IMG/VR virus record: IMGVR_UViG_3300020182_000082
Coordinates: 1 to 38,389 of that record
Length of the DNA stretch: 38,389 bases
Reading direction: 5' to 3' (one strand)
Source of the DNA: a virus
The translations under genes were made by a program, and so were the position numbers. Shown in pieces: positions 24,946 to 29,168 of the stretch (the stretch's first letter is position 1; every line of letters begins with the position of its first letter). The notes beneath the pieces are model-generated. The model worked only from the letters and a program-made list of their open reading frames with translations, did not search any database and was not told where the DNA came from.

Positions 24946-25404
24946 TTAGTTGATACCTATTGCTACACCTGCTACCCCATGATCCCGTATTGTTAACATG
25001 TCCTCTAATGTCATCGCTACGGTATCTACCAACGGGTGCGTTTGTGTTCTGTGCTTGGACGTAGTAACACTGTGCTTATCAATGTTCTCGTACCAAACAC
25101 CCCTCTCGTATATAAACAACGGCCAATGATATCCATAGCTGTATACAACGTACTTGCTGTAAGGCTGCGCATCATTGTGTGTCCATTGTCCAAACAAGTT
25201 ATTACCAAGAAATGACGTGCGCTCCTGCACACTACTACGCGCCATGACATTTGTTACCTTTGGACTCCTCATTCTCGCTACCTCTCTATCTCTTTTGATT
25301 GCGGCTTCTCTCTGCCGTGTGTACCTTATGTACTCTTTGGTCGATTCACTCACAAACCTTCGGCGTGAATCTCCTACATCACTTAGTGTGGCTAGGTATT
25401 CCAT
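24946..25404 (-). CDS. 152-aa hypothetical protein
   Basis: AAGGAG lies about 9 nt before the ATG, and the start overlaps the HTH gene's end by 26 nt. Residues 15-50 are a very basic helix ('YIRYTRQREAAIKRDREVAR'). The rest is a small aromatic-rich beta domain: 'YVVYSYGYHWPLFIYERGVW', then 'DKHSVTTSKHRTQTHP' with several His/Ser/Thr. The second region looks like a conserved phage domain from memory but without a known function. DNA or RNA binding is possible given the basic helix. Confidence 0.7.
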   Translation of the reverse strand: MEYLATLSDVGDSRRRFVSESTKEYIRYTRQREAAIKRDREVARMRSPKVTNVMARSSVQERTSFLGNNLFGQWTHNDAQPYSKYVVYSYGYHWPLFIYERGVWYENIDKHSVTTSKHRTQTHPLVDTVAMTLEDMLTIRDHGVAGVAIGIN

Positions 25405-25627
25405 CGCTCTTCTCCTTCCATCGTTTAATTATGTTGGCCACGGTCATGTCACTTACACCCACTACCCTACTGATGCGTTTGTAACCATACCCTCGGTTGT
25501 GCCGGTCAAGCACCGCTTCTTCCAACTCCGCGCGGGTAGCGTAATTACCCTTAGTCAGGGGTCTACCGTTGAATAGCTTGGTCGATTGGGGGTGACGTTC
25601 TCCCGTCATATACATTGTCTCAGTCAT
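25379..25627 (-). CDS. Homeodomain-like helix-turn-helix protein
   Basis: 82 residues from the ATG with GAGG 6 nt upstream; ATGs at 25639 and 25633 in the same frame are alternatives, and the first overlaps the preceding stop as ATGA. Residues about 40-72 form a resolvase/transposase-type HTH: 'GYGYKRISRVVGVSDMTVAN' then 'IIKRW'. The N-terminus is basic and flexible. It follows the vWA gene directly, so it could regulate that operon through the 23-bp dyads at 27989 and 29190; this is inference. No transposase catalytic domain is attached. Confidence 0.78.
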   Translation of the reverse strand: MTETMYMTGERHPQSTKLFNGRPLTKGNYATRAELEEAVLDRHNRGYGYKRISRVVGVSDMTVANIIKRWKEKSDGIPSHTK

Positions 25628-25635
25628 GTTCATCC

Positions 25636-26838
25636 TCATAACTTGTTACTGTCTATGTGTACTACCTTCCCACATGGTGGGTTGGCCCGTCTGTTGTCGA
25701 TGATGATCCACAGTACTGGGCACGTCCACGTACCCCAATCGCCACCGACATAGCCATCCGTAATCATGATCGCTGCTTGGGGGCGTATCCCGTTGTCAGT
25801 CATATAGCTAGGGACACATGATGGACTCGTACCGCCGCCACCCTTGGGCTTGGTCGAACTCTCGTACGTGTCCATGTTGTTGCTGTCGTACACCTCGTCA
25901 CCACATACCTTAGTGTCCCAATACAACACGCGTAACTGCTCGGGCTTGACCGTGTTTAAGAGCATAGCTGTCTCCGCACGTATGATCGGCATCACCCTGT
26001 CCATTGACGCTGACATGTCGGCACCTTCCACCAACTCACCCACCTGCTCACTGATGCCGCTGGGCATATACACATGCGCCATTGTCTTGCGTCGGGGGCG
26101 TCGCCACGTTGACATATCATTTCCAGAACATGTTGTCTGTAAGAAATCCCGCAACACGTCACGCCAATTGACTTGGGGTATCGCACTGTCAGTAAACATC
26201 TTGTCCAGACCACCGCCCAACTTACCGGCAAGCATGGTGCCTTGGCGTATCGCCTCGTTTACCTCGGCAGTTAGCTCCTTGGTCTCCTCCGGTGTCAGCT
26301 CCTTGGCTCCGTCCCAGTCGTGCTCGTCCATACTGCCAGCGTCGGACATGTCCTTACCGTCTTCTTGTTCTTTCTGTAGTATCTTGAACACCTCGCCTGC
26401 AGACATGTCTAGAAACCTAGGCTCATATAACCCACCACTGGGCATAACAACGAACGGCTTGTAGTCAGCCTTGCCCTTGGCACGTTCTTGTTCTTCTTGG
26501 ATGAGCTTGGCATTGATGACGTAATCACACGACATATTTGCCAACTGCCCGTTGATGCGGAACAACTTGTCATAGGTAGCCAGATGCTTGAGAGCTTTGT
26601 GGTAGTTCTCGTGTAGCACCGTGAACCTTAACTCGGGATCGGTATGCGCCTCGATGAACCCACGCCCATACCACTCATCTCTACCATTAGTACATGCGGT
26701 CGGCGTCTTGTCATCGACAGCGCGTGAACCTATCGAGAGAATACCTTGCATCGGTACGTAGTCTGGGTGTCGCATGACTAGCACAACTGCTCGGTGTAAC
26801 CGCTGCTCGGCGGTCAATGATTGCTTAATTGCTAACAT
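25636..26838 (-). CDS. vWA protein with HExxH metallopeptidase motif (CobT/DUF2201-like)
   Basis: 400 residues from the ATG with AAGGAG 6 nt upstream; a longer frame running 189 nt into the ATPase gene is not used. The N-terminal domain has 'VLHENYHKALKH' (His76, Glu77, His80), as in the metallopeptidase-like half of DUF2201 proteins. An acidic linker (about 155-200) follows, then a vWA domain with MIDAS 'DMSAS' (274-278), a Gly-rich 'GGGGTSP' loop and 'ITDG' (359-362). Such proteins work with MoxR/CobS-type AAA+ ATPases, whose gene lies 10 nt upstream. The pair probably remodels or inserts cofactors into a target protein; the target is unknown. Ends ATGA onto the HTH gene. Confidence 0.85.
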   Translation of the reverse strand: MLAIKQSLTAEQRLHRAVVLVMRHPDYVPMQGILSIGSRAVDDKTPTACTNGRDEWYGRGFIEAHTDPELRFTVLHENYHKALKHLATYDKLFRINGQLANMSCDYVINAKLIQEEQERAKGKADYKPFVVMPSGGLYEPRFLDMSAGEVFKILQKEQEDGKDMSDAGSMDEHDWDGAKELTPEETKELTAEVNEAIRQGTMLAGKLGGGLDKMFTDSAIPQVNWRDVLRDFLQTTCSGNDMSTWRRPRRKTMAHVYMPSGISEQVGELVEGADMSASMDRVMPIIRAETAMLLNTVKPEQLRVLYWDTKVCGDEVYDSNNMDTYESSTKPKGGGGTSPSCVPSYMTDNGIRPQAAIMITDGYVGGDWGTWTCPVLWIIIDNRRANPPCGKVVHIDSNKL

Positions 26839-26848
26839 GTTCTGCTCC

Positions 26849-27949: not shown

Positions 27950-27988
27950 AAGTATATTTCCTTAGTTTAGTTTTGGCTTATGCCATTT

Positions 27989-28011
27989 TCTGTTAGTACG
28001 CTACTAACAAA
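27989..28011. promoter_or_regulatory. 23-bp dyad A upstream of MoxR-like ATPase
   Basis: TGTTAGTA-CGC-TACTAACA with one mismatch in the outer arm. It is the least perfect of four copies. It overlaps the last codons of the 60-aa gene and ends 40 bp before the ATPase start. A likely operator, or a 10-bp RNA hairpin in the message. Confidence 0.75.
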
Positions 28012-28186
28012 TTCGGTTGTACTGCACGTATTCACGCGTATCGACATGCTTGAAGAAGTGCATCGTCGGGCTTGAGTACATGTACATATAGTGATACTTG
28101 CCGTCGTCCGGCATCCCATTACGTAACGCATCCTCGAACGCATACTCTGGGTCTACCACCTCTCGTTCGGCTTTGGTATATCTCAT
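28004..28186 (-). CDS. 60-aa hypothetical protein
   Basis: AAGGAG is 6 nt before the ATG, and the gene starts 10 nt after the DUF3150-like gene ends. The product is acidic at the N-terminus ('AEREVVDPEYAFEDALRNG') and aromatic in the second half ('YHYMYMYSSPTMHFFKHVD'). No family is recognised. Position between two members of the ATPase system suggests it belongs with it. Its 3' end contains dyad A. Confidence 0.68.
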   Translation of the reverse strand: MRYTKAEREVVDPEYAFEDALRNGMPDDGKYHYMYMYSSPTMHFFKHVDTREYVQYNRIC

Positions 28187-28196
28187 GTCTTACTCC

Positions 28197-29168
28197 TTAT
28201 AGGTCTAGTGATGGTAGGCTGGCTAACACCTCGTCTACCGTACGCTTGGTTTCGGCACGCAACGTCGGGTCATCCTTGAGTGCGTCCTTGTTTAGTGGGA
28301 ACTGCCCCACACCTCGGAACCTGTCCTCTAGCTTCTGACGCACAGCTTCTAAGTGCACGTCGCCGGTCACGTTGTAGTCTTTCAACATGTCCAGAAGTGG
28401 GAACAGATTGCCTAGGGTTCTGTCGTGTATACCGCCCGAGCTGTCGAGCTGGGTACTGAGCGTCGAGGTGATATCATGCACCCGTTGCCATAGGTCATTA
28501 CTCATGCTGCGGATGGCGTTGGTATGGTAATCCTCAAACGTGTTCTTAATGTTGGCGAACTCCTCCCCGATCATCTCGGACACAAAATGCCCCGTATCAG
28601 GTACCGGCAAGAACGACAGGCTCCATGCGAATTTCCTACGCATACTCTCAACGGATGGGTAATCGTCTTGGTCGTACAACATACCGAGACCATCGAACGC
28701 TGCGTCGTGCACCCTGCCCCACTCGTAAGAATCGAGGAACCCTGCCTCGTGCTTGGTGTATGCCAAACCCTGCTCATCGTATGCCCGCACGTCGTGGCCT
28801 AGCACTAACTCCCAATACCTGTTTTCTAGTTCAGAGAAATGGGCAGCTATCTGGGGGATCGCAGCGACGGGTATAATCCTGTGTCCCATCTTGCCCCATG
28901 CCAGAGTCATGGCCTTGAGATCTGTTCGGGCAACTCGTACGATCTTGTTGATCGCCTCGAGCATTTTGTTACCCGCGAACCGATTCTTGGTTACTTGTAC
29001 ATCCTTGGGATTCTGCACGTTGTACTGAATCATGGCCGCTTTGGTTGCACGCTTGTCGATCTTGCTGCCCCGAATCTCGGATATGCTTAGTTCTAACAAG
29101 ACTGCGCAACTTGAGATCGAGGGTGCGGATACCTCGGGTAACGCGGTGACGTTTATGTCGTGTTGCAT
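28197..29168 (-). CDS. DUF3150-like protein, first gene of the leftward operon
   Basis: 323 residues, mostly helical. AAGGAGG is 5 nt before the ATG. The N-terminus ('LLELSISEIRGSKIDKRATK') and the later 'ARTDLKAMTLAWGKMGHRII' fit the DUF3150 style (recognised from memory). DUF3150 genes in plasmids and phages often lie next to cobS/cobT-like AAA+ and vWA genes, as here; the biochemical role is not known. It is served by the strong promoter at 29248-29276, and dyad B lies in its leader. I infer a substrate adaptor or target of the ATPase pair. Confidence 0.72.
   Translation of the reverse strand: MQHDINVTALPEVSAPSISSCAVLLELSISEIRGSKIDKRATKAAMIQYNVQNPKDVQVTKNRFAGNKMLEAINKIVRVARTDLKAMTLAWGKMGHRIIPVAAIPQIAAHFSELENRYWELVLGHDVRAYDEQGLAYTKHEAGFLDSYEWGRVHDAAFDGLGMLYDQDDYPSVESMRRKFAWSLSFLPVPDTGHFVSEMIGEEFANIKNTFEDYHTNAIRSMSNDLWQRVHDITSTLSTQLDSSGGIHDRTLGNLFPLLDMLKDYNVTGDVHLEAVRQKLEDRFRGVGQFPLNKDALKDDPTLRAETKRTVDEVLASLPSLDL

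Follow-up and report, generated by a model that had tools for sequence, protein, structure and literature searches.

A DUF3150-like protein encoded with a MoxR-type ATPase and a zincin–vWA protein in the early region of a phage lineage and on Burkholderiales plasmids

Introduction

The window analysed in this study, the whole 38,389-nucleotide stretch of the IMG/VR virus record IMGVR_UViG_3300020182_000082, encodes an AAA+ ATPase close to a vWA protein with an HExxH motif and to a DUF3150-like protein. The question raised by this locus is what these genes do for a phage, on which target they would act, and whether the DUF3150-like protein belongs to the same machine as the ATPase and the vWA protein.

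Gene content of the locus

Five minus-strand ORFs are present at positions 25379–29168 (from the ORF calls, the ribosome sites and the alignment of homologues), where an earlier note on this DNA had placed five leftward genes:

28197–29168, minus strand: DUF3150-like protein, 323 aa; third conserved component (profile of homologues, Pfam on homologues, predicted fold)
28004–28186, minus strand: 60-aa ORF; lineage-specific accessory gene with the ribosome-binding site AAGGAG
26849–27949, minus strand: MoxR-type AAA+ ATPase, 366 aa; Walker and sensor residues, PHROG_1297 (7.8e-34)
25636–26838, minus strand: protein with an N-terminal zincin-like metallopeptidase and vWA/MIDAS, 400 aa; Pfam DUF2201_N (72.5 bits, cut-off 23.2) and DUF2201 (39.7 bits, cut-off 26.4)
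25379–25639, minus strand: HTH protein, 86 aa; lineage-specific accessory gene, Pfam HTH_23 (30.8 bits, cut-off 24.6)

The vWA ORF listed mechanically spans 25636–27027, and its 5' part overlaps the ATPase gene. The start of the gene is very probably ATG 26838 and not 27027, since AAGGAG stands in front of it and the homologue alignments begin there. The five genes had been read as one system; all five ORFs are real, but the conserved core is made up of three, the DUF3150-like, MoxR-type AAA+ and DUF2201 zincin–vWA genes, the 60-aa gene having a homologue in 2 of the 41 viral contigs with this triad and the HTH gene being found in a single one. The MoxR-type AAA+ and vWA/HExxH identities proposed earlier were borne out by motifs and, for the vWA protein, by Pfam; the DUF3150-like reading of the third core product agrees with its homologues.

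Relatives with the triad and with TerL and portal homologues reach 62–66 kb, so the 38-kb window is probably a fragment of a genome of that size. Following the triad, most relatives of the lineage encode two fast-diverging proteins, located in the window at 24002–24925 (307 aa) and 23749–24015 (88 aa); a family search with the 307-aa protein gave no convincing match. A second HExxH motif of the window (KHELRHRGL) belongs to a 253-aa protein encoded at 31027–31788 on the plus strand.

MoxR-type ATPase and zincin–vWA protein

The ATPase has the Walker A motif GAMGEGKT and the Walker B motif VIINLDE, and residues G30, G33, G35, K36, D101, E102, N139 (sensor-1 Asn) and R223 were invariant in the alignment of 23 ATPase sequences. 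Its best solved relatives in profile searches were the AAA domains of midasin, an AAA ring, and it has a linked gene for a vWA partner, in keeping with the MoxR type; the bpMoxR model matched weakly, and only 1 of the 23 ATPases. The 'CobS' label of the earlier note found no support, as the window proteins gave no NCBIfam match to CobS or CobT and no Pfam match to CobT.

The vWA protein combines a zincin motif (HENYH) with a MIDAS (DMSAS…T…D). Residues H76, E77, H80, H85, D105 and N109 were invariant across 25 divergent homologues, and zero variation was found at the MIDAS residues D274, S276, S278 and D361 of the same proteins. The pattern HExxHxxxxH…D…N is also present in Acinetobacter phage Presley, coliphage PhAPEC7, Synechococcus phage MinM2, two plasmids and podovirus cto1L10, and the MIDAS is conserved as well in the vWA proteins of N4-like phages, MinM2, plasmids and cto1L10. 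The predicted model showed a vWA fold with a match to MDN1-MIDAS (E 5.7e-5) and a weak match to the minimal metallopeptidase selecase (E 0.03). A scan of genome contigs for the vWA protein turned up five loci; identity was 36–41% in two cases.

The protein is a member of PHROG_1314 (5e-69), which, together with many phage records (e.g. RefSeq NC_023581, Presley_33), labels this family 'HNH endonuclease'. No Pfam HNH domain was matched in the window protein, and the label is a misnomer for the zincin–vWA family. For the family studied here, the invariant zincin site speaks in favour of the peptidase annotation.

DUF3150-like protein

The 323-aa protein of the window gave no Pfam hits of its own, and its putative assignment to DUF3150 is based on its homologues and on its predicted fold. 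Seventeen of the 24 aligned homologues match DUF3150 (PF11348), some of them exceeding the curated cut-off of 24.9 bits (up to 29.8). Conserved acidic residues of DUF3150 include D38 and D93. The window protein scored 216 bits against a profile built from the other 23 homologues, and its predicted fold matches a viral DUF3150 model (E 3.6e-12). Assignment to a specific fold was dropped, given that PDB searches with the DUF3150 model returned generic helical-bundle matches only. The name DUF3150 occurs nowhere in the searchable literature, a scope that leaves out most subscription journals and preprints, and within it the partnership of DUF3150 with an AAA–vWA pair seems to be undescribed.

Distribution of the triad

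A synteny survey indicated that the gene order is not unique to one contig, being found in viral contigs and, as a gene set, in MinM2 and on plasmids. All three genes, mostly within about 2–4 kb, are carried by 41 non-redundant viral contigs, which were obtained from viral-contig scans and a PolA-anchored scan with lineage-derived queries and are thus not independent samples. The order is DUF–AAA–vWA in 35 of them, AAA–vWA–DUF in five and AAA–DUF–vWA in one. Outside the lineage, Synechococcus phage MinM2 has, like the window, MoxR, DUF3150 and VWA-like genes, already annotated so and lying within about 4.5 kb, but in the order AAA–DUF3150–vWA and with extra small genes between them; for the Synechococcus and Planktothrix phages MinM2, Pag-Yong1 and Pra-JY27, TerL is 41% identical.

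The ATPase, DUF3150-like and vWA genes were also found together on all six Burkholderiales plasmids inspected, whose hosts are Burkholderia, Robbsia, Cupriavidus, Caballeronia and Simplicispira. In the plasmid cassettes (pBMC401, pBVIE02 and others) the three homologues are adjacent or near each other, and the DUF3150-like proteins score 172–232 bits. Unlike the phage triad, several of these cassettes are near PRTRC and type IV secretion genes; on plasmids L065, L067 and L154 the triad is flanked by PRTRC-system genes on one side and by a type IV secretion cluster on the other.

N4-like phages have the AAA–vWA pair with no recognisable DUF3150, and no hidden copy came to light in these phages or in cto1L10 when HMMs and profiles were compared. 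Contig L027 has the pair too, with no DUF3150 found in 4.2 kb upstream. Since both keep the pair, DUF3150 is, judging from these sequences, not strictly required for it. Eight fragmentary contigs without DUF3150, searched whole, gave no match; most of them end at or inside the ATPase gene and carry little weight. The distance correlation was strongest between AAA and vWA (r 0.90), with values of 0.79–0.81 for DUF3150 against AAA and vWA and of 0.77–0.82 for the neighbour p307, so that coevolution of DUF3150 beyond shared descent was not separated from that of p307 by this measure.

Pelagibacter phage HTVC027P, DSL-LC04 and 023Pt_psg01 (complete) are without all three triad genes. They share TerL, portal, GroES and a 336-aa protein (TerL and portal at E 1e-146 to 1e-175), and their PolA is distant only. 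The existence of three phages with the same particle genes and without the triad places the latter with the early/replication side, and argues that it is no general need of this virion type.

Transcription unit and palindromes

The claim that these genes come first in an early operon agrees with the elements located around their 5' end, and the dyads described ahead of two of the genes proved to be real:

30695–30713, no strand assigned: 19-bp palindrome before the 221-aa gene, one of four copies
29979–29994, minus strand: strong intrinsic terminator ending the preceding 221-aa gene (sequence scan)
29733–29751, no strand assigned: 19-bp palindrome in the intergenic region, one of four copies
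29248–29276, minus strand: sigma-70-like promoter ahead of the triad, TTGACA-17-TATACT with TG (11/12 match, best in the region, where the total number of such matches is not above chance)
29192–29210, no strand assigned: 19-bp palindrome in the gap between promoter and DUF3150 start, ~20 nt before the latter; mRNA-leader hairpin
27991–28009, no strand assigned: 19-bp palindrome, ~40 nt before the ATPase start

With the 221-aa gene closed by the terminator and the best promoter in front of the triad, the latter stands at the head of a separate unit. Nuclease and PolA genes lie downstream of it, and the triad is upstream of PolA also in the relatives having enough upstream sequence.

The palindrome TGTTAGTANNNTACTAACA has four copies in the window, where 0.02 are expected, all between 27.9 and 30.8 kb. 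In the relatives compared (L034, L040, L025, L015 and L033) the outer TGTTA-N9/10-TAACA is kept, while the inner arms differ between phages and are mostly uniform in each genome (TGTTAGGG…CCCTAACA in L034, TGTTATAC…GTATAACA in L040 and TGTTAGTG…CACTAACA in L025); L033 has two palindrome types in one genome. Many of them are located upstream of the DUF3150 gene or directly after the 88-aa gene. The change of the inner arms in concert suggests a trans-acting reader, and thus a regulon with a coevolving factor that may act via DNA operators or leader hairpins. The 86-aa HTH protein was set aside as the palindrome binder, because palindromes are present in relatives with no detected HTH homologue.

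The stretch 29200–30000 comprises ~0.8 kb of intergenic sequence with an AT-rich run, the short direct repeats TTCCTGTAATG and GTACATTACA, and a 36-nt repeat at 29767/29819. It is a possible replication origin.

Comparison with known systems

The AAA–vWA pair as such is not new. In N4, gp24/gp25, the MoxR-type ATPase and vWFA protein of Schitoviridae, constitute such a pair, with homologues listed as of function unknown (PMC2784036). They are homologous to the AAA+ and zincin–vWA proteins of the window and have the same invariant residues, and the pair belongs to the early/middle region, where the N4-like genomes inspected have it behind the RNAP II genes. Unlike the window, phages Presley, PhAPEC7 and PJN101 have no recognised DUF3150 near the pair. 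In group 2.2 jumbo phages, a MoxR–vWA/metallopeptidase pair was reported and virion assembly proposed for it; it has the same two-protein architecture, likened here by description rather than by sequence, and, in contrast to the window triad, no third gene is described in the available part of that report (PMC7824862). The designation of the locus as an undescribed system can be retained at most for the DUF3150 partnership, the pair being known from N4 and from jumbo phages, and the genes of MinM2 being annotated. The three-part version with DUF3150 appears to be undescribed.

As proposed here for the triad, NorQ/NorD, RavA/ViaA and midasin have an AAA ring with a MIDAS partner or domain, and the profile and model searches match midasin, MDN1-MIDAS and NorQD. 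To our knowledge, these three systems all lack a DUF3150 partner as well as the zincin domain found in the DUF2201 protein. In NorQ/NorD, a finger of the vWA protein enters the ATPase pore and ATP hydrolysis remodels the complex; the MIDAS of NorD is required for activity but dispensable for NorQ binding, and its proposed ligands are acidic residues of the target (PMC9976466, PMC13036017).

Proposed function and alternatives

The domain content, the intact active sites, the linkage of the three genes in phages and plasmids, the early placement and the independence from the virion module are features of the triad itself. For its function, we give an even chance to a protease that acts early, is driven by ATP and guided by the MIDAS, and remodels its client, DUF3150 being either adaptor or client, and that is directed to a host or a replication/transcription target and not to the virion or cobalamin. 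The MoxR-type ATPase would form a ring on which the vWA protein docks, the MIDAS metal gripping an acidic residue of the client, as homology with NorQ/NorD suggests, and the zincin domain of the same polypeptide would cut the gripped client. DUF3150, in view of its linkage, would be a dedicated third subunit, most likely an adaptor that selects the client, or else the client itself. The machine would act early, beside the DNA replication genes, on a host protein or on a replication/transcription protein. Early action is proposed from the operon position; early transcription is also compatible with a later role.

It is unlikely that the triad is instead a conflict module, by which a host defence or takeover target would be eliminated or disabled. 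Such a role would explain a triad common to phages and conjugative plasmids, which are unrelated mobile elements, and its place in an early unit, and biological conflicts are known to involve MoxR–vWA ternary systems (PMC7159879). However, the third component is DUF3150-like and not VMAP or iSTAND, the PADLOC defence models gave no match to the three window proteins, and the triad is a stable core of the phage lineage, unlike most conflict genes, which tend to be scattered in their occurrence and to change quickly.

Plasmids make no virion, and the presence of the triad on them renders rather improbable a role in virion assembly or processing, by which the MoxR–vWA–peptidase pair would fold and cleave structural proteins. 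The opposite-strand early unit and the three phages with homologous TerL, portal, GroES and 336-aa proteins but no triad point in the same direction. Acidianus two-tailed virus served as the analogy when this function was put forward for the same-architecture pair of group 2.2 jumbo phages (PMC7824862), and the window does have large structural-type ORFs, of up to 2253 aa.

The maintenance of the replication/transcription machinery, with a trio that matures or recycles a phage replication protein from its own unit, is very doubtful. PolA and Holliday-junction-like nuclease genes are nearby throughout the lineage and in the N4-like genomes inspected the RNAP II genes precede the pair, but the MinM2 triad is near a different primase (TOPRIM DnaG/twinkle-like) and the triad plasmids use other replicons. 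Scarcely credible is a CobST-type chelatase, in which the pair joins host CobN and raises cobalamin synthesis, as published for viral AAA–vWA pairs with CobT said to be mistakenly annotated as peptidase (PMC8651126), given that the vWA protein matches DUF2201 and not CobT, that the HExxH is invariant, that neither CobN nor the ribonucleotide reductase large subunit was detected in ten related contigs (several incomplete), and that DUF3150 would be left unexplained.

In agreement with the earlier note, no chelatase partner was found; its further statement that no target gene is present goes beyond a window that probably covers 38 kb of a 62–66-kb genome.

Significance

Phage records with homologues of N4 gp24/gp25 number in the hundreds, with 415 for the vWA protein, and the labels given conflict: cobalamin enzyme, assembly chaperone and HNH endonuclease. 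The search for their function is narrowed by the link with a third conserved protein, with plasmids and with an early rather than a virion module. Both published functions, virion assembly and CobST, are disfavoured by the DUF3150 partner, by the presence on plasmids and by phages that have the same particle genes but no triad. More tentatively, and with less than even confidence, the remodelling protease proposed here may represent a distinct three-part ATP-driven class (DUF3150–MoxR–zincin/vWA) of tailed phages and conjugative plasmids, in which DUF3150 would deliver one particular protein, of the host or of replication, to the machine early after cell entry.
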